This document shows positions 32,736 to 44,582 of a stretch of DNA of 64,000 nt, one piece after another (position 1 is the first letter of the stretch; each line of letters starts with the position of its first letter). Both the position numbers and the translations under genes were made by a program. The notes under the pieces were generated by a model. That model saw only the letters and a list, made by a program, of their open reading frames with translations. It did not search any database and was not told where the DNA came from. Source of the stretch: Bradymonas sediminis (lineage in GTDB: Bacteria; Myxococcota_A; Bradymonadia; Bradymonadales; Bradymonadaceae); contig NZ_CP030032.1 in the NCBI RefSeq assembly GCF_003258315.1, positions 906,001-970,000 of the forward strand, given 5' to 3'.

Positions 32736-33572
32736 ATGACAGAGTTTTTCCAAATCGCGCTTTCACTGCCGACCGTCGTGTTCAGCGCGTTGCTCGTGGT
32801 GCTCTCTCTGTATTGGGGGCTGGTGGTTCTGGGCGCGCTCGACCTTGATTTTGCCGATGTTGACCTCGATTTTGACGTCGACACCGACCTCGGCATTGAG
32901 ATGGGCGTTGATATTGGCAGTGATGTCGACGTCGACGCGGGCGCGGAGGCGCCCAGCGCGAGCCTGCTGATGAGCGCGGCGAGCGCGCTGGGGTTGGGCG
33001 TCGTGCCGGTGACGGTGGTGGTAAGCATTATCACCCTCTTCGCCTGGCTCTTTAGCTTCACCTCCGTCTATTATCTGACGCCGCTGCTCGGCGACGGGGC
33101 GCTGGCCGCGCTGCTATTAGGCGTAGGGAGCGCCGCGCTCTCGCTTATCCCCACGGTGCTCGCCGTGAAGCCTCTCAAGCATCTCTTTCACACCACCGAG
33201 GGCCCCCAGGGCGGGCGCGCGCTCGTCGGCACTGTCTGTGTGGTCTCGACCAGCCGCGTCGATGCGCGCTTTGGCCAGGCCACCGTCGAAGACGACGGCG
33301 CCGGTCTTATTTTGCCCATCCGCTGCGAGGACGTGTCTAACGGGCTGACGCGTGGCTCAAAGGCGGTAATTATCGACTTTGATTCGAGCGATAATAGTTA
33401 TATGGTCGAGCCATATGATGTTTTTTTGGGGACGGACCGCTCCAATAAAGGGCTTGAATTGGCGCAGAATATTTCGCGCGCGTTTGATGAATCCGACGCT
33501 CGGGCCGAGGCAGAAGTCGCGGAAGTCTCAGAGCAAAATATCCCGGAAACGATGCCTCAAAAGGGCGCATAA
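32736..33572 (+). CDS. YqiJ-like OB-fold membrane protein
   Basis: 278 residues. An N-terminal membrane helix (about 8-38) is followed by an unusual Asp-rich stretch, with repeated DLDFADVDLDFDVD-type acidic residues (about 39-68). Two more membrane segments (about 80-155) follow, then an OB-fold-like C-terminal domain (RALVGTVCVVSTSRVDARFG, NGLTRGSKAVIIDF), and an acidic tail. This layout matches YqiJ/NfeD-type partners of flotillins. The flotillin gene follows after 88 bases, so they probably form an operon. The acidic segment may bind cations such as Ca2+ or Mg2+ (inference). Confidence 0.75.
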   Translation: MTEFFQIALSLPTVVFSALLVVLSLYWGLVVLGALDLDFADVDLDFDVDTDLGIEMGVDIGSDVDVDAGAEAPSASLLMSAASALGLGVVPVTVVVSIITLFAWLFSFTSVYYLTPLLGDGALAALLLGVGSAALSLIPTVLAVKPLKHLFHTTEGPQGGRALVGTVCVVSTSRVDARFGQATVEDDGAGLILPIRCEDVSNGLTRGSKAVIIDFDSSDNSYMVEPYDVFLGTDRSNKGLELAQNISRAFDESDARAEAEVAEVSEQNIPETMPQKGA

Positions 33573-33660
33573 CCCGGGTTTGGCAACCACTTACAGAACC
33601 CACCGCGCGCTCGATTCGCGGCGGCGCTAGAATTTACAAAAACAACACACGGGTAAACGC

Positions 33661-35814
33661 ATGGATATGGAAGCTTTGGGAGCGATGGAATTTGGCCTGC
33701 TATTTTGGATCGTGCTCGCCGTGCTCGGGCTCGCCGCCATCGTGGCGATGGTGATGCGCTTTTATATCAAGGTCGACCAGGGCGAGGCGCTGATCGTCAA
33801 TACGCTCAGCGATATCCGCGTGACCTTCAGCGGGGCGGTGGTATTGCCGATTATCTACCGCGCCGAGATCATGGATATCTCGCTCAAGACGGTCGAGATC
33901 GACCGTCGTGGTAAAGAAGGCCTTATCTGCCAGGATAATATCCGCGCCGACATCAAGGTCACCTTCTTCGTGCGCATCAATAAGACCCGCGAGGACGTGC
34001 TGCGCGTCGCTCAGTCGGTCGGCTGCAAGCGCGCCAGCGACCAGGACAAGATCGAGGAGCTCTTCGTCTCGAAATTCTCCGAGGCGCTTAAAACCGTCGG
34101 TAAGCAGCTCGATTTCGTCGCGCTTTACCAGGAGCGTGTGCATTTTCGCGAGAAGATCATCGAGATCATCGGCCAGGACCTCAACGGTTATGTCCTTGAG
34201 GACGCCGCCATCGACTTCCTTGAGCAGACCCCGGTCGAGAGCCTGGACCCCAACAATATCCTCGACGCCCAGGGCATCCGAAAGATTACCGAGCTGACGT
34301 CTGAGCAGCGCTACCGCACCAACGAATTCTCAAACAAAGCCAAAAAGGATATCGGAAAGGACGACCTCGAGACGCATATGGCGATGCTCGAATACGCCCG
34401 CCAGGAAGCCGAGGCTGAAGCCAAACAGCAGCGTGAAGTCTCCGTCGTCCAGGCCCGCGAGAAAGCCGAGGCCGAAGAGCTGACCGCCAAGGAACTCGCC
34501 CGCGCACAGGTCGCCACGCTTAAGGCGCAGCAAGAGATTGAGGTCCAGGCGATTAACAAATTGCGCGAGCAGGAAGTCGCCCAGAAAAACCGCGAGCGCG
34601 TCATCGCGGTCGAGCACGAGCATGTCGAAAAAGAGCGTCAGCTTCAGATTATCGCGCGTGAGCGGGAGACCCGCCTGCAGCGTATCGAGGCGGATAAGGA
34701 GGTCGAGGCCGAGAAGAAGAATATCGCCGAGATCGTGCGCGACCGCGTCGTCGTCGACAAGACCGTCGCCGAGGAAGAGGAGCGCATCAAGGATCTGCGC
34801 ACCATCGCCGAGGCCGATCGTCAGAAGAAGGTCACCATCACCGCCGCCGAGGCCCAGGCCGAAGAGGCGCTGGTCAAGGATATCAAACAGGCCGAGGCCG
34901 CCGAGGTCGCCGCGGGTTTCCGCGCCAAGCAGCGTGTCATCGAGGCCGACGCCGAGGTCGAGGCCGCCGAGCGCACCATGCGCGCCAAGAAGCTGCTCGC
35001 CGAGGGTGTCGAAGCCGAGGAGGCCGCGCTCGGGCTCGCAGAGGCGCGCGTCAAAGAAGCCGACGCGCAGGCCAATGAGAAGCAGGGTATGGTTGATGTT
35101 CGCATCAAGGAAGCCGAAGCGCTTGCCATCGAGAAGCAGGGCATGGTCCAGGTGCGCTTGAAGGAAGCCGACGCCGAGGCAAACGAAAAACAAGGCATGG
35201 TCGAAGTGCGCATCAAAGAGGCTGACGCGCTGGCCACCGAGAAGCAGGGCATGGTCGAAGTGCGCATCAAAGAGGCCGACGCGCTCGCCAAAGAACAGCA
35301 CGGGATGGCCGATGTTCGCGTCAAAGAGGCCGACGCGAAGGCCGTCGAGATGCAGGGGATGGCCAGCGCCAACGTGCTCAAGGCCCGCCTGTTGGCCGAG
35401 TCCGAGGGCTTGAGCGAGAAGGCCGAGGCGATGAAGTTATTCGACGCCGAATCCCTCGCCTTCGAGCAATTCCAGATGAAGCTCGACCTGGACCGCGAGC
35501 TCGGCATGGAGCAGCTCGCCAAAAATGTTGACATCGCAAACGCCCAGGCCGGCGTCTTCGCCGAGGCGCTTAAGGCTGCCGACATGACCATCGTCGGCGG
35601 TCAAGAAGCCTTCTTCAAGAGCTTCACCAACGCGCTCACGGTGGGCAAAATGGTCGAGGGCTTCCTCGACAATAGCCCGACCGCTCAGAGCGTGGTCGAG
35701 CGCGCCATGGAGCATTTTACCGGCCCCGCCAAGTCGAGCGCCACGCGCTCACAGGATCCAAACGCGAGTCATATCGATCCCGACCTCGTGACTGATTTGA
35801 CGCCCGGAGAGTGA
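33661..35814 (+). CDS. Flotillin-family protein (YqiK-like) with repeats
   Basis: 717 residues. A membrane hairpin near 15-37 precedes an SPFH/band-7 domain (about 38-200: FYIKVDQGEALIVNTL, VEIDRRGKEGLICQDNIR). A very long Glu/Ala/Lys coiled coil follows. Residues 463-570 are six tandem 18-residue repeats of the type RIKEADALATEKQGMVEV, encoded by 54-base DNA repeats. C-terminal DLDRELGMEQLAKNV resembles other flotillins. Such proteins oligomerise into membrane microdomain scaffolds. The stop overlaps the ATPase start (GTGATG), so the two are translationally coupled. Confidence 0.9.
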   Translation: MDMEALGAMEFGLLFWIVLAVLGLAAIVAMVMRFYIKVDQGEALIVNTLSDIRVTFSGAVVLPIIYRAEIMDISLKTVEIDRRGKEGLICQDNIRADIKVTFFVRINKTREDVLRVAQSVGCKRASDQDKIEELFVSKFSEALKTVGKQLDFVALYQERVHFREKIIEIIGQDLNGYVLEDAAIDFLEQTPVESLDPNNILDAQGIRKITELTSEQRYRTNEFSNKAKKDIGKDDLETHMAMLEYARQEAEAEAKQQREVSVVQAREKAEAEELTAKELARAQVATLKAQQEIEVQAINKLREQEVAQKNRERVIAVEHEHVEKERQLQIIARERETRLQRIEADKEVEAEKKNIAEIVRDRVVVDKTVAEEEERIKDLRTIAEADRQKKVTITAAEAQAEEALVKDIKQAEAAEVAAGFRAKQRVIEADAEVEAAERTMRAKKLLAEGVEAEEAALGLAEARVKEADAQANEKQGMVDVRIKEAEALAIEKQGMVQVRLKEADAEANEKQGMVEVRIKEADALATEKQGMVEVRIKEADALAKEQHGMADVRVKEADAKAVEMQGMASANVLKARLLAESEGLSEKAEAMKLFDAESLAFEQFQMKLDLDRELGMEQLAKNVDIANAQAGVFAEALKAADMTIVGGQEAFFKSFTNALTVGKMVEGFLDNSPTAQSVVERAMEHFTGPAKSSATRSQDPNASHIDPDLVTDLTPGE
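35047..35370 (+). repeat. Six tandem 54-bp repeats within flotillin gene
   Basis: Repeat starts at 35047, 35101, 35155, 35209, 35263 and 35317. Each encodes 18 residues of the form RIKEADA-x-A-x-EKQGMVEV. The copies are diverged at third positions in places, so this is an old but still regular coiled-coil extension. It may change copy number between strains. Confidence 0.92.
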
Positions 35815-38800
35815 TGTCGAACTCGGAGAGTAGCACCGCCCCGCCCACTGAGGCGGGGATTGAAGGCAGCAATTACGATATCATCCGGCGCCGCCTGGAA
35901 GACCAGGCCCAGGAGTTGCGCCGGCGCACCGACGCCCTCAACGACGCGCGCGCCGCCAAATTCGGCGGCACCGAGATGAGCGTGGTCGGCCAGGAGCGCG
36001 TGCGCACCGAGCATAATTGCGTCCCCCGCGATATCGTCAGTATCGGCCAGAAGCTGCTCTTCGGCTATAATGTGAAGATGGGGCTGAAGACCAAAACCGA
36101 GGTCGCCGACGTCTTCACTTTGCATCATTTTAGCCGTGAAAAAGACCCCGACTCGGCGGCGACCTTTCAGCTCAGCCCCTTGCCCGAGGAGACCTCTGAT
36201 AATTTCCTAAGCGACCCGAAATTCGTCCAGAATTTCGACGAGCTTTATAATTATTATAAAGACACCCGCCTCGCCCAATTGCTGCGCGTCGAGGGGCGTT
36301 TGCTCGCTATTTTTCAGGTCGGCTCAACCCTTGGGGACCGGCGCGTTTTGCGCTGGGGCCTCGACGCAAACGACGATATTCAATACCTCGACAACGCCGG
36401 CGACCGCGACCTTAAGTTGCCGGATTCCCACGACTTTGACTGGCGCGCGCTCGGGCGCGAGCATCATGTCCTGGGCAAGAATCCGCATATCAGCATCATC
36501 GACGAAGTCTTCGTTGAGACGGTCGGCGGCGACCTTACGATCAAGGTCGAGGACAACACCGCCGACGGCCAGGGCATCTACCGCGAACCCGTTGAGGATA
36601 AACATCAATCGCTGGGCGACGCGGAGTGCTATTGGGCCAAAGTCGGCAACCTGATCCTCATCAAAATCCTGCCCTATCGCGAAGACAAATGGCGCTACTT
36701 TGTCTTTAATACGCTGACCAAGGAGGTCGAGCGCCTCGACGCCATCGGCCAATCCTGCATCCAACTCCCCGAGGAGCAGGGCGTCGTTTTTCCCGGCGGC
36801 TTCGTCCTCTCCAACGGTCGCGCGCGGCGCTTCGACGGCGAGATTGAGGGCATGCGCATTCACCAGGTGATTCGGTCGGCCAACGGTGAGGATGTGCTCT
36901 ACGTCTTCTATCGCCCGCAGGACGGCAATTATCTGTTGCTGGCCTATAATGTCATCCGCAAAGACGTCCAAAATCCCATCAATTGCCAGGGCTATTCGCT
37001 CTTTGAAGACGGCACGATGATCGTCTTTCGCTTTCAGGGCGACGAGCCGACCCGCGTGCATCCGATGCAAATCTGGCAGACGCCTTTTGTGGGCGACGAG
37101 TTCGCGGCGAGCCAGCCGCAGGATGATTCGCTGCTCTCGAATATCGGCAATCCCGAGCTCGTGCGCGGCATCTCCGACGCCTATAGCCTTGCCGGCATGG
37201 TCGATGAACTCGCCGCGTCGATGCCCGTCTACGAGGCGCTGATCGCCAGCGCCCAGCGGCTCATCGACGGCTACTTCTGGCTGAGCGACGCCCAGGTCGG
37301 CGACCTCGCCAGCGTCGCCCGCGAGATGGTCTCGACCGCCGGTTTGGTCATCGACGAATTCCAAAAAGTGACCGTGCTCCAAGAGAAGGCGCGCGACGCG
37401 ATCGTCGAGGTCGAGAGCGCTCAGCGCGAACTCTTCACCGACGTGCGCTACCAGGATTGGCGCCGCATTGAGCGTTTTGTCGACGGGTTGGGGCGCCTGC
37501 GAAAGCAGCGAGGTCGCCTGATCACGCTCAAAGATACCCGCTATATCGACGTGGCTCGCCTCGACGAGCTCGAGGTCGAAGTCACCAAGCAATACGACCA
37601 ATTGAGCAAGGCGGCCGCTGATTTTCTACTCGACGAGGAGGCGCTTAAAACCTATCGCGACGGCCTCACCAAGCTGGAGTCGGATCTTGAGACACTTGCC
37701 GATACCAAACGCGGTCGCGAACTCGAGGAGCAGCTCAACGAGATCAACGCCGGGCTCAATCTTTTGACCGAAGTTGTCAGCACTTTGCAGGTCGACGACC
37801 CGACGCAGCGCACCAAGATTTTGGAGAATATCGGCGAAGTATTGGGCCGCCAAAACCGCGACCGTGCGCGACTTCAACGCCGCCTCAAGGAACTCGCCGA
37901 ATCCGAAGGTCGCGCTGAGTTTGGCGTGCAAATTCAACTGTTTAGCCAGAGTATAGCGAGCGCCCTGGGCATCTGTAATGAACCTGAGGATTGCGACGAA
38001 CATCTCACGCGTTTGATGGCCCAACTCGAGGAACTCGAAGGCCGCTTTAGCTCTTTTGATGGCTTTTTGACCCAATTGGCCGAGAAGCGCGACGAGCTCT
38101 ACGAGGTCTTCGAATCCCGCAAACGCGCGCTTGTCGAGGCGCGCCGGCGCCGCGCGGATAATATGGCCGCCAGCGCGGACCGTATCCTAAAAGGCGTGGT
38201 TCGGCGCGCGTCGAGCCTGAAGTCGGTCGAAGACCTTAACGGCTATTTCGCGGCTGACCCGATGGTCATGAAGGTGCGCGACCTCGCCCAGAATCTGCGC
38301 GCGTTTAACGAGGGCGTGCGCGCCGATGATATCGAGTCGCGCCTGCGCTCCGCTCGCGATAAATCCGCGCGCCAACTGCGCGATAAGATTGATCTTTTCG
38401 CCGGCGGCGACGACGTCATTCAATTCGGGCGCCACCGCTTTAGCGTGCACACCCAGAAGACTGAGTTGACCCTGGTGCCCCACGCCGACGCGATGGCCCT
38501 GCATATCAGCGGCACCGAGTTTTTGGAGCCCCTGGAGGACCCTGAATTCGAGAAGACGCGTCCCTTCTGGAGCCAGGCGCTGATCTCGGAGACCGACGAG
38601 GTGTATCGCGGCGAATACCTCGCCGCCTCCATCCTCTTTGCCGCCGAGCAGCACGAGCACGACCTTGATATGGGCGTGATCGAAAAAATGCGCGTCGAGG
38701 GGCGCATGGAGAACCCGGACGACCCGGCTAAATTAAAATCATTGGCCCGCGACTTTATTAATCGCAACTTCAATGACGGCTACGAGCGCGGCGTGCACGA

Positions 38801-40892
38801 CGAAGATGCCGCCCGCATTTTGGACGCGTTTTTGGGGCTCTACGCCAGCGCCGGCTTGCTGCGCTTTACCCCCGAAGGCCGCGCGCTCGCGACCCTATTC
38901 TGGGCGTATTCGACCTCTTCGCATATCGATAAAGAAACCCAGGAATCTCGGGACCTTATCCGCAGTCGGGACCATTGGCGCACCCGGGCGCTCAGCCTGG
39001 GTCGCCTGCGCGAAAGCCTCGGCCACGCCGAGCCGATTCAACGTCTGGGCGAAGACCTGGCCGAAGCAATCGAGCCCTTTGCGCGGCAATTTGGTGATTT
39101 CGCGGGGCGCACCAAACTCATCGCCGAAGCGGGCGAATACCTGGCCGAAGAGCTCGTCGACCAGACCCCTCGTTTTATCGAGAGCAGCGAGGCCGCAGCG
39201 CTTCGAGATAAGTTTTTAGGCTTCCTCGACCAGAAACACGCGCGCCTCGATTTCGACGCAGATCTGGCGGCGCTGGGCGATAATGTCAGCGCGAGTTGGC
39301 GCCTCGCGATGGCCTGGATTGCCGGCTTCGCGCGCACCCACGTCAAGGAAGATGTCGAGCATCTGTTGGCCGAGGTCGCCGCGTTGATCCTCTGCGATAA
39401 AAAGCTCGAGCGGCAGAGCGCAGAGACCCGAACCTCGGTCGAAATTACCGACCTCTTGGGCGACCATCCGCGCATCCAAAAGGGCAAGCTCCTGCTGCGT
39501 CTCGACGAGTTTTTGACCCGGCTGCGCCGCTATTTCGCGGTGCAGGTGCCCGGCTACCGGGCGTATCGCCAGGCCAGCCGCGATATCCTGGCGCGCGAGC
39601 GCCTGCGCCTGCGCATCGATGACCTCGAGCCGCAGGTCTTCGGCGGTTTCGTGCGAAACCAACTCATCGACAAGGTCTACTTGCCGCTCATCGGCGATAA
39701 CCTGGCCAAGCAGATGGGTACCGTGGGCGATGATAGCGGCAGCGCGCGCAGCGGGCTCCTGCTGCTTATCTCGCCGCCTGGCTACGGTAAGACGACGTTG
39801 ATGGAGTATATCGCCGACCGCCTGGGCGTGATTTTTATGAAGATCAACGCCCCGGCGTTGGGTCATAATGTCACCTCATTGGACCCGGCCGAGGCCCCAA
39901 ACCTCACCGCCCGCCAGGAGGTCGAGAAGATCAACCTCGCCCTTGAAATGGGCAATAATGTCATCCTCTATCTCGACGATATTCAGCATACCCACTCGGA
40001 ATTTTTGCAAAAATTTATCTCTCTTTGCGACGCTACTCGCCGCATCGAGGGCGTGTGGAAAGGCAAGCCCAAGACCTACGATCTGCGCGGCAAACGCTTC
40101 GCGGTCATCATGGCAGGAAACCCCTATACCGAGTCCGGCGCGCGCTTTCGCATCCCCGATATGCTCGCCAACCGCGCCGACACCTATAACCTGGGCGATA
40201 TCCTAAGCGGCAAGCGCGACGTCTTCGAGATGAGCTATATCGAGAACGCGCTGACCTCGAACCCGGTCACCGCGCCGCTGACCCGCCGCGAGCGCGGCGA
40301 TATCGCGCGCTTCCTGAAATTGGCCGCCGGAATGCAGATCCCCTTGAGCGAATTCGACCACGCGTATTCCTCGGTGGAGGCTGGCGAAATCGTCAATGTT
40401 TTGAAGAAGATGAACCAGATCCGGGACGTCGTCCTCAAGGTCAACCAGCAATATATCGAGTCGGCGGGCAAAGAGGATAATTACCGCACCGAGCCGCCGT
40501 TCCAATTGCAGGGTAGCTATCGAAATATGAATCGGATGGCGGCCAAAATCGCGTCGGCGATGAACGACGCCGAGGTCCAGGCGCTCATCGACAATCACTA
40601 CGACCAGGAGAGCCAGACGCTCACCAGCGGCAGCGAGCAGAACCTGCTCAAACTCGCCGAGCTTCGCGGCACGATGACCGAGGGCGAGCGCGCGCGTTGG
40701 GAAGAGATCAAGGGCGAGTATCGGCGGCGCAACCAGCAGGGCGACGAGGACCCGATCGGGCGGGTGGCGAGTCAGTTGGGTGATATCCGCGAGGTGCTGG
40801 AGTTGGCGACGCGCTCGGCGAAGAAGGGCGCGCCGAAGCTTCCTAAACCGCGCACGAATACACCGGATACGAGCGGCCAGCCGGCGGAATAA
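35814..40892 (+). CDS. Giant coiled-coil AAA+ ATPase ("DNA repair ATPase" family)
   Basis: 1692 residues, predicted cytoplasmic. The first ~460 residues have many short beta-strands (VEGRLLAIFQVGS, YRPQDGNYLLLAYNVI), suggesting a beta-propeller-like region. A long coiled coil follows (about 480-830). A mixed helical region leads to an AAA+ module near 1290-1560: Walker A SPPGYGKTTLM (near 1323), Walker B VILYLDDIQH (near 1386) and AVIMAGNPYTESGARF. Homologues are often labelled 'DNA repair ATPase', with, I believe, a DUF3686 region; that name has little support. It starts within the flotillin stop codon (ATG 35814, with GGAGA 3 bases upstream; GTG 35811 is an alternative). It probably acts with the flotillin and YqiJ-like protein. 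Confidence 0.8.
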   Translation: MSNSESSTAPPTEAGIEGSNYDIIRRRLEDQAQELRRRTDALNDARAAKFGGTEMSVVGQERVRTEHNCVPRDIVSIGQKLLFGYNVKMGLKTKTEVADVFTLHHFSREKDPDSAATFQLSPLPEETSDNFLSDPKFVQNFDELYNYYKDTRLAQLLRVEGRLLAIFQVGSTLGDRRVLRWGLDANDDIQYLDNAGDRDLKLPDSHDFDWRALGREHHVLGKNPHISIIDEVFVETVGGDLTIKVEDNTADGQGIYREPVEDKHQSLGDAECYWAKVGNLILIKILPYREDKWRYFVFNTLTKEVERLDAIGQSCIQLPEEQGVVFPGGFVLSNGRARRFDGEIEGMRIHQVIRSANGEDVLYVFYRPQDGNYLLLAYNVIRKDVQNPINCQGYSLFEDGTMIVFRFQGDEPTRVHPMQIWQTPFVGDEFAASQPQDDSLLSNIGNPELVRGISDAYSLAGMVDELAASMPVYEALIASAQRLIDGYFWLSDAQVGDLASVAREMVSTAGLVIDEFQKVTVLQEKARDAIVEVESAQRELFTDVRYQDWRRIERFVDGLGRLRKQRGRLITLKDTRYIDVARLDELEVEVTKQYDQLSKAAADFLLDEEALKTYRDGLTKLESDLETLADTKRGRELEEQLNEINAGLNLLTEVVSTLQVDDPTQRTKILENIGEVLGRQNRDRARLQRRLKELAESEGRAEFGVQIQLFSQSIASALGICNEPEDCDEHLTRLMAQLEELEGRFSSFDGFLTQLAEKRDELYEVFESRKRALVEARRRRADNMAASADRILKGVVRRASSLKSVEDLNGYFAADPMVMKVRDLAQNLRAFNEGVRADDIESRLRSARDKSARQLRDKIDLFAGGDDVIQFGRHRFSVHTQKTELTLVPHADAMALHISGTEFLEPLEDPEFEKTRPFWSQALISETDEVYRGEYLAASILFAAEQHEHDLDMGVIEKMRVEGRMENPDDPAKLKSLARDFINRNFNDGYERGVHDEDAARILDAFLGLYASAGLLRFTPEGRALATLFWAYSTSSHIDKETQESRDLIRSRDHWRTRALSLGRLRESLGHAEPIQRLGEDLAEAIEPFARQFGDFAGRTKLIAEAGEYLAEELVDQTPRFIESSEAAALRDKFLGFLDQKHARLDFDADLAALGDNVSASWRLAMAWIAGFARTHVKEDVEHLLAEVAALILCDKKLERQSAETRTSVEITDLLGDHPRIQKGKLLLRLDEFLTRLRRYFAVQVPGYRAYRQASRDILARERLRLRIDDLEPQVFGGFVRNQLIDKVYLPLIGDNLAKQMGTVGDDSGSARSGLLLLISPPGYGKTTLMEYIADRLGVIFMKINAPALGHNVTSLDPAEAPNLTARQEVEKINLALEMGNNVILYLDDIQHTHSEFLQKFISLCDATRRIEGVWKGKPKTYDLRGKRFAVIMAGNPYTESGARFRIPDMLANRADTYNLGDILSGKRDVFEMSYIENALTSNPVTAPLTRRERGDIARFLKLAAGMQIPLSEFDHAYSSVEAGEIVNVLKKMNQIRDVVLKVNQQYIESAGKEDNYRTEPPFQLQGSYRNMNRMAAKIASAMNDAEVQALIDNHYDQESQTLTSGSEQNLLKLAELRGTMTEGERARWEEIKGEYRRRNQQGDEDPIGRVASQLGDIREVLELATRSAKKGAPKLPKPRTNTPDTSGQPAE

Positions 40893-42610: not shown

Positions 42611-42991
42611 CGGAGCCAGACCCAGCGGGTCTGGCTCCGGAAGGCGACGCAACACGAATGCGGAGCCAGACCTTCAAGGTCTGGAAGACCAGCGTTTATC
42701 AGCCAGACCCAGAGGGTCTGGCTCCGGAGGGCGACGTAACACGAATGCGGAGCCAGACCTTCAAGGTCTGGCAGATCAGCGTATATCAGCCAGACCCAGC
42801 GGGTCTGGCTCCGGACGGTGGCGGAATGACAAATCATTCGGAGCCAGACCTTCAAGGTCTGGCAGATCAGCATTCACTAGCCAGACCCAGAGGGTCTGGC
42901 TCCGGAAGGCGACGCAACACGAATGCGGAGCCAGACCTTCAAGGTCTGGCAAACCAGCGTATATCAGCCAGACCCCGAGGGTCTGGCTCCG
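42611..42991. repeat. 66-nt nested palindromic repeats
   Basis: Four full 66-nt copies (42661-42726, 42748-42813, 42839-42904, 42926-42991) and one shortened 29-nt copy (42611-42639). Outer arms CGGAGCCAGACC / GGTCTGGCTCCG are perfect complements, and each unit contains two inner 7-bp hairpins (CCAGACC / GGTCTGG). Linkers between copies are 21-25 nt and mostly alike (AAGGCGACGCAACACGAATG). The short copy looks like a deletion between the two CCAGACC direct repeats. The rest of the 614-base gap between catalase and trpB (42417-42610 and 42992-43030) shows no other feature; promoters of katA must lie there. Confidence 0.92.
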
Positions 42992-44236: not shown

Positions 44237-44410
44237 GGCGTACTTCTCTAAATATGATGTTTGGGGTGTTAAGGGAGCGGGCATCGTCAGGGCGACGGCG
44301 CTCACGCAAGGTTGGCAGGGAGAGCGTCCGGCAGGACCCGGACGAGCTAACCTGCAGCGATAGCACGCCTATTCCCTGAAAAGAAAGTCATATTCCTTCG
44401 CCCACCCTCC

Positions 44411-44582
44411 GCCGAGCAGGTGATCCATCGCCGGAGGCGCGACCTGACCCTCAGCCAAGCAGGTCATCCATCGTCGAGGGCGCGACCTGACCCTCAGACG
44501 AGGAGATGATCTATCGCCGGGGGAGCCGCCTGACCCCCAGACGAGGAGATGATCGATCGTCGCGGGCGCGTCTCGGCGCCGT
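44411..44582. repeat. Four 43-bp degenerate tandem repeats
   Basis: Copies start at 44411, 44454, 44497 and 44540. The shared core is GATGATCCATCG (or TCATCCATCG) with a GGGCGCGACCTGACCCTCA-like second half; the fourth copy is diverged at its end. Further isolated copies of the core occur inverted at about 44670-44687 and direct at about 44716-44730. The whole 44237-44788 gap between trpB and lplA is unusually G-run and C-run rich and has no gene that I accept. Confidence 0.8.

Follow-up and report, generated by a model that had tools for sequence, protein, structure and literature searches.

A conserved YqiJ-like, flotillin and AAA+ ATPase operon in Bradymonas sediminis, a candidate ATP-driven membrane machine

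An operon of YqiJ-like, flotillin and AAA+ ATPase genes, with or without PspA and YjfI, is named as a likely membrane-stress system by Ravi et al. 2024 (PMC11237479). Its experimentally studied relative is probably the Pseudomonas aeruginosa bac operon (bacA-F), whose products include YjfI (BacA), PspA (BacB), a short NfeD protein (BacC) and a 76-kDa SPFH protein (BacD); the six genes are co-transcribed, and a bacA mutant has 6- to 13-fold more of all products (PMC10948618, PMC2587700, PMC13086221). Mutants in BacA or BacB lose biofilm and rhamnolipids (PMC13086221). PA3728, which directly follows the SPFH gene, is given as an "ATPase" (PMC8190622), and we infer that bacE/PA3728 is the DUF3686 ATPase discussed below. 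Elsewhere, the FloA-NfeD pair of Staphylococcus aureus stabilises unfolded proteins without ATP (PMC11222466), and a Bacillus subtilis SPFH protein is reported to recruit PspA (PMC8581546). Here we analyse a 64,000-nucleotide stretch of the Bradymonas sediminis genome (NZ_CP030032.1, positions 906,001 to 970,000, forward strand; hereafter the window, whose numbering we use) that encodes a YqiJ-like membrane protein, a flotillin and a giant ATPase. A first-pass annotation had taken this gene set for an undescribed system. That claim falls, as the set, including its abbreviated form without PspA, is already described in PMC11237479, and the bac operon is probably its genetically studied relative (PMC10948618, PMC2587700).

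To ask how well the three genes stay together, we collected 80 named ATPase loci and 18 from relatives of the B. sediminis genome, and counted gene order in the 96 loci with more than 250 bp upstream of the ATPase. A same-strand flotillin gene lies upstream of the ATPase gene in 87 of these 96 and is directly adjacent in 84; in 76 loci a YqiJ-like gene that spans most of the family profile was found, nearly always just upstream of the flotillin gene. Among the phyla represented are Pseudomonadota, Myxococcota, Acidobacteriota, Actinomycetota and Gemmatimonadota. Nine loci lack an upstream flotillin, and all eight of the corresponding genomes that were checked (L021 was left out) carry one elsewhere. 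The window has the abbreviated operon, with adjacent same-strand genes for a YqiJ-like protein with three transmembrane (TM) segments, a band-7/flotillin protein and a propeller/coiled-coil AAA+ protein.

Counts over whole genomes are stronger than counts over loci because they are independent of linkage. Among 58 genomes, the relatives together with B. sediminis itself, 19 carry the ATPase and 21 the flotillin, which is found in 19/19 ATPase genomes versus 2/39 genomes lacking the ATPase (Fisher p = 2e-13; such p-values are optimistic, since related genomes are not independent). In G017, which has a flotillin and no counted ATPase, the AAA+ half runs off the contig end; in G014 it is the flotillin that runs off a contig end, and the AAA+ half was not found. 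The same pattern is seen in each of three separate groups. In the order of Micromonospora (G065), the ATPase occurs in 13/101 genomes and the flotillin in the same 13 and none of the 88 others. In the order of Hahella (G066), the ATPase occurs in 18/146, and flotillins scoring above 700 bits in 18/18 of these versus 0/128; in ten further genomes there, the flotillins are all distant ones that score below 200 bits. All told, the flotillin is present in 50 of 50 ATPase genomes sampled across three bacterial groups. The two co-occur even where their genes are unlinked, as in G004, G031, two Sorangium genomes and a clade with a split ATPase, and the 12 ATPase records in a plasmid collection, some of them chromosome-sized, are the same 12 that head its flotillin list. 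(The same collection holds more than 200 Escherichia plasmid records with low-identity tblastn matches to the flotillin, ranked below the best 20.) The YqiJ-like, flotillin and ATPase genes are one conserved unit. Conserved co-occurrence across relatives, which the first-pass annotation had proposed as its own check, is borne out by the 87 of 96 loci and the 50 of 50 genomes.

The split clade is instructive. Four Thiotrichales-type genomes encode the N-terminal part of the ATPase (window residues 1-1196; about 1165-1240 amino acids [aa]) and the AAA+ part (residues 1197-1693; about 625-645 aa) in separate genes on different contigs, and the flotillin sits at a third locus, with YqiJ adjoining it in three of the four. 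Since these genomes form one fully supported clade in our tree, a single event is enough; given the weak root, the sequences are compatible with either a fission or the split form being the older state. In the predicted structure, the split point is in a loop. That all pieces are kept though unlinked argues for shared function over mere operon inheritance. We had considered from four loci (L076, L079, L082 and L092) that loss of the AAA+ part accompanies loss of the flotillin, and rejected this, because in these genomes both the flotillin and the AAA+ part turned up at other loci.

The ATPase begins with DUF3686 (PF12458, residues 35-489, E = 4e-199, 662 bits against a curated cut-off of 25). 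A model of residues 1-720, with a predicted local distance difference test (pLDDT) score of 88, places strands from residue 57 to 423 followed by helices and coiled coil, and among the matches listed almost all are propellers, of the WD40 type or another (best Z 9.9); on this model DUF3686 is predicted to be a WD40-like propeller. Toward the C terminus, an AAA_5/AAA Pfam match covers about residues 1317-1440. In structural alignments, the model of residues 860-1693 (pLDDT 86) lies nearest CbbQ (Z 17.3 over 251 residues at 3.8 A) and NorQ (Z 16.5); CbbQ/NorQ matches score Z 15-17.3 over 226-251 residues, compared to about 14 for dynein and about 13 for Clp, and RuvB leads in Foldseek by E-value only. 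The predicted motor therefore resembles most closely the MoxR-type remodelling ATPases CbbQ and NorQ, enzymes that remodel protein complexes. When catalytic residues were judged in an alignment of 44 sequences (A4), Walker A K1327, the Walker B pair and the candidates for sensor 1, the arginine finger and sensor 2 were all invariant. Our literature search found no use of "DUF3686" and no paper joining flotillin with MoxR.

Neither the YqiJ-like protein nor the flotillin of the window matches any Pfam model by itself, and using the two as sequence queries against Pfam, NCBIfam and PDB gave nothing useful, so both were assigned through relatives. For the flotillin, 6 of 41 relatives match Band_7, at best with E 9e-10, and Escherichia coli YqiK is 27.6% identical over 421 residues (E = 4e-30); through these and its repeats, the N-terminal membrane segment, Band_7 domain and subsequent coiled coil of an SPFH protein can be recognized. 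The coiled coil contains six 18-residue repeats, of which a 54-bp tandem array at 35046-35362 is the DNA-level view. Other family members have repeat periods of 11, 22, 29 or 33 residues, and the 18-residue repeats are the form that this family trait takes in the window. All five periods are sums of 11 and 18, and periods of 11 and 18 favour straight over tightly wound coiled coils. The repeats would fit the wall of a tall SPFH cage whose height grows by repeat addition. At one locus (L104, G006), a second, shorter flotillin-like match adjoins the full one.

The YqiJ-like protein has hydrophobic segments at residues 14-32, 84-102 and 117-135, by hydropathy only, and a soluble C-terminal domain predicted to be an OB-fold by homology to YqiJ/NfeD (PMC2636767). 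Its family profile recovers E. coli YqiJ (E = 7e-10), and PF21001 is matched by 1 of 40 relatives. Between the first two segments lies the Asp-rich stretch DLDFADVDLDFDVDTDLGIEMGVDIGSDVDVD, with 12 Asp, 1 Glu and neither Lys nor Arg. In relatives, the TM1-TM2 loop is likewise acidic, from 10 to 143 residues long, with few or no basic residues and in some cases Asp-X or A-E-G repeats; the acidic loop is thus a family trait. S. aureus NfeD crosses the membrane with three helices and keeps its OB domain in the cytosol (PMC11222466), and with a similar topology the loop would be predicted to face the cytoplasm.

The three open reading frames (ORFs) lie on the plus strand (Table 1). At the flotillin/ATPase junction, GAGTGATG, the GTG start of the ATPase at 35811 overlaps the flotillin TGA stop by 4 nucleotides; an alternative ATG at 35814 would overlap it by 1. 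Much of the first-pass annotation agrees with these results: three coupled same-strand genes with the ATPase starting inside the flotillin stop, a membrane protein, probably with an OB-fold, that has an extreme Asp-rich segment, a repeat-extended flotillin, and an ATPase of about 1690 residues ordered as propeller, coiled coil and AAA+. The flanking genes, for a sulfatase and an arsM-like methyltransferase upstream and a catalase (identified from sequence) downstream, are all on the minus strand, which marks a self-contained three-gene unit. We found no YjfI (CesT/Tir-like) or PspA gene adjoining the operon, as the full CesT/Tir-PspA version would have. A PspA gene occurs in this genome at 2957387-2958043, about 2 Mb away. 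The region 2953572-2958043 holds two PspA-family genes close together on opposite strands, possibly the operon's phage shock protein (PSP) partner in trans. Farther along the window are two tandem arrays, one of 87-bp units (42614-42991, 4.3 copies) between the catalase and trpB-like genes, and one of 43-bp units (44404-44570, 3.9 copies) that is apparently intergenic.

Table 1. Positions of the operon's genes, domains and candidate catalytic residues in the window
Feature	Position	Strand	Basis
YqiJ-like / NfeD2-type membrane protein, 278 aa	32736..33572	+	ORF, homology, hydropathy
Asp-rich TM1-TM2 loop, residues 36-67	32841..32936	+	Sequence; acidic loop at equivalent place in relatives
Flotillin-family SPFH protein, 717 aa	33661..35814	+	Band_7 in relatives; E. 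coli YqiK match
Six 18-residue coiled-coil repeats, residues 466-573	35056..35379	+	Sequence repeat analysis
Giant AAA+ ATPase, 1693 aa	35811..40892	+	ORF, Pfam
Predicted WD40-like beta-propeller, residues 54-425, main part of DUF3686	35970..37085	+	Pfam, predicted structure
DUF7902, residues 610-694, inside helical/coiled-coil part	37638..37892	+	Pfam, predicted structure
Residues 1196/1197, split point into two genes in one gammaproteobacterial clade	39396..39401	+	Locus and genome comparison
Predicted MoxR-like AAA+ module, residues 1266-1621	39606..40673	+	Predicted structure, structural alignment
Walker A GYGKTT, residues 1324-1329 (K1327)	39780..39797	+	Invariant residues in A4
Walker B Asp-Asp pair (LDD), residues 1389-1390	39975..39980	+	Invariant in A4
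Asn1437 (MAGNP), sensor-1 candidate	40119..40121	+	Invariant in A4; putative role
Arg1455, arginine-finger candidate	40173..40175	+	Invariant in A4; putative role
Arg1571 (GSYRNMN), sensor-2 candidate	40521..40523	+	Invariant in A4; putative role

On balance, we lean toward reading the operon as a single membrane machine, in which a flotillin-OB scaffold has its own MoxR-type ATPase for remodelling or client release under envelope stress. The YqiJ/NfeD-like OB-fold protein would anchor and organise the flotillins at the membrane's inner face, where they would form a scaffold shaped as a cage or clamp, as other SPFH proteins do. The giant ATPase would dock on it through the propeller and coiled coil, and the AAA+ ring would spend ATP either on remodelling the scaffold or on extracting or releasing the proteins that it holds, presumably in a response to envelope stress. 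The gammaproteobacterial unit would work beside PspA, of the ESCRT-III family, and the chaperone-like YjfI; PspA would be an optional partner, encoded elsewhere in B. sediminis. Gene order, co-occurrence that persists without linkage, the CbbQ/NorQ-like AAA+ module, co-occurrence with DUF2170/YjfI (18/18 ATPase genomes in the order of Hahella versus 18/128 others) and the literature on FloA-NfeD, SPFH-PspA and bac all speak for this reading. Several points weigh against it. We found no report in the literature of physical contact between ATPase and flotillin, and deletion of the bac flotillin (paFlo3) has almost no phenotype (PMC13086221). A MoxR-like predicted fold is no proof of remodelling, and a Pfam scan of the operon and two upstream genes gave no match to VWA, the partner domain typical of MoxR, so we claim likeness of fold and not family membership. 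Walker B is Asp-Asp instead of the usual Asp-Glu, and hydrolysis may therefore be slow or regulated. Near B. sediminis, finally, PspA accompanies the ATPase in all 19 genomes and tells little, because it is so common (51/58 genomes overall, p = 0.08).

This last observation also bears on the idea that the ATPase mainly disassembles a PspA/ESCRT-III-like coat, as a bacterial Vps4 analogue that flotillin and the YqiJ protein only position on the membrane. YjfI and PspA do lie upstream in 23 of the 80 named loci, all gammaproteobacterial, and plasmid pQBR103 carries a larger version of the operon with YjfI, PspA and other stress genes. Most operons outside the gammaproteobacteria, the window's included, have no neighbouring PspA, however, and the tight partner of the ATPase is flotillin, so that we think this account unlikely. 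A conflict system, anti-phage or otherwise, that attacks or guards the membrane seems very unlikely. Its patchy distribution in the three groups and its presence on some plasmids would suit such a role, whereas PADLOC gives only coiled-coil (LmuB) and P-loop (IetA) similarity with no match to a system model, the ATPase appears in zero phage records, the recurrent neighbours are YjfI and PspA rather than defence genes, and the ATPase tree follows phyla to a large extent; we therefore set a defence system aside.

The database label raises a further possibility, that the ATPase acts in DNA repair and that its sharing of an operon with membrane proteins is incidental. Pfam and NCBI carry this label, and by E-value RuvB ranks with the top Foldseek hits. 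Structural alignment instead favours CbbQ and NorQ, domain searches including Pfam found no DNA-binding domain, and the ATPase occurs with the membrane flotillin in every genome tested. We rejected DNA repair as the best reading on the fold and the missing domain and regard it as extremely improbable; the first-pass annotation had likewise doubted the label, and we found nothing for it beyond the shared AAA+ fold.

Returning to the membrane-machine reading, we advance more tentatively, as something we would not yet bet on, that this flotillin subfamily never stands alone and supplies the membrane half of a machine driven by ATP, the other half being a MoxR-type motor on a propeller arm. If so, HflK/C-FtsH and Vps4-ESCRT-III would be joined by a further, distinct system, an unfoldase or a scaffold disassembler attached to the membrane. 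Bacterial flotillins are usually viewed as passive scaffolds; if a widespread subfamily always has its own AAA+ motor, the energising of flotillin domains becomes directly testable. The operon also ties flotillins, PspA and AAA+ enzymes together beyond the ESCRT systems of eukaryotes and archaea, and a family mislabelled "DNA repair ATPase" gains a better working hypothesis.

Compared with known systems, the locus shares with E. coli yqiJ-yqiK a YqiJ-like gene followed by a flotillin gene, whereas E. coli has no adjoining ATPase and DUF3686 is absent from the E. coli control genome. HflK/C-FtsH likewise pairs an SPFH protein with an AAA+ enzyme, but FtsH belongs to another AAA+ type and is a protease. 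The S. aureus FloA-NfeD pair joins an SPFH protein to an NfeD OB partner, yet works without ATP (PMC11222466). CbbQ and NorQ are the nearest solved folds of the AAA+ module, which differs in being fused to a propeller and coiled coil and in its 14% identity. The bac operon offers YjfI, PspA, short NfeD and 76-kDa SPFH genes in order, then the PA3728 "ATPase" (PMC8190622); it has PspA and YjfI within the operon and a sigma-54 site, while the window operon lacks PspA and YjfI. One Pseudomonadales genome encodes proteins of 15.3, 23.3, 76.3 and 204.8 kDa in bac order; between the first and second of these lies a weak PspA match. Beside bac-type operons at two loci (L150, 2681-5196; L151, 2751-5236) we also noticed a convergent pair of Hsp70-like (PF00012, tested in L150) and J-domain-like-looking genes, with a similar pair in L152 (Pseudomonadales); such a pair would fit protein quality control. 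The closest match is the CesT/Tir-PspA, band-7/flotillin, propeller AAA+ and YqiJ operon in the accessible part of PMC11237479, whose abbreviated PspA-less form matches the window. There, the ATPase is included "in some cases" and no AAA+ clade is given, whereas here we find near-absolute co-occurrence with one flotillin subfamily and a predicted MoxR-like fold. To that known operon our analysis adds the putative MoxR-like motor, the predicted DUF3686 propeller, the split ATPase clade, the flotillin repeat periods and the acidic loop as a family trait.
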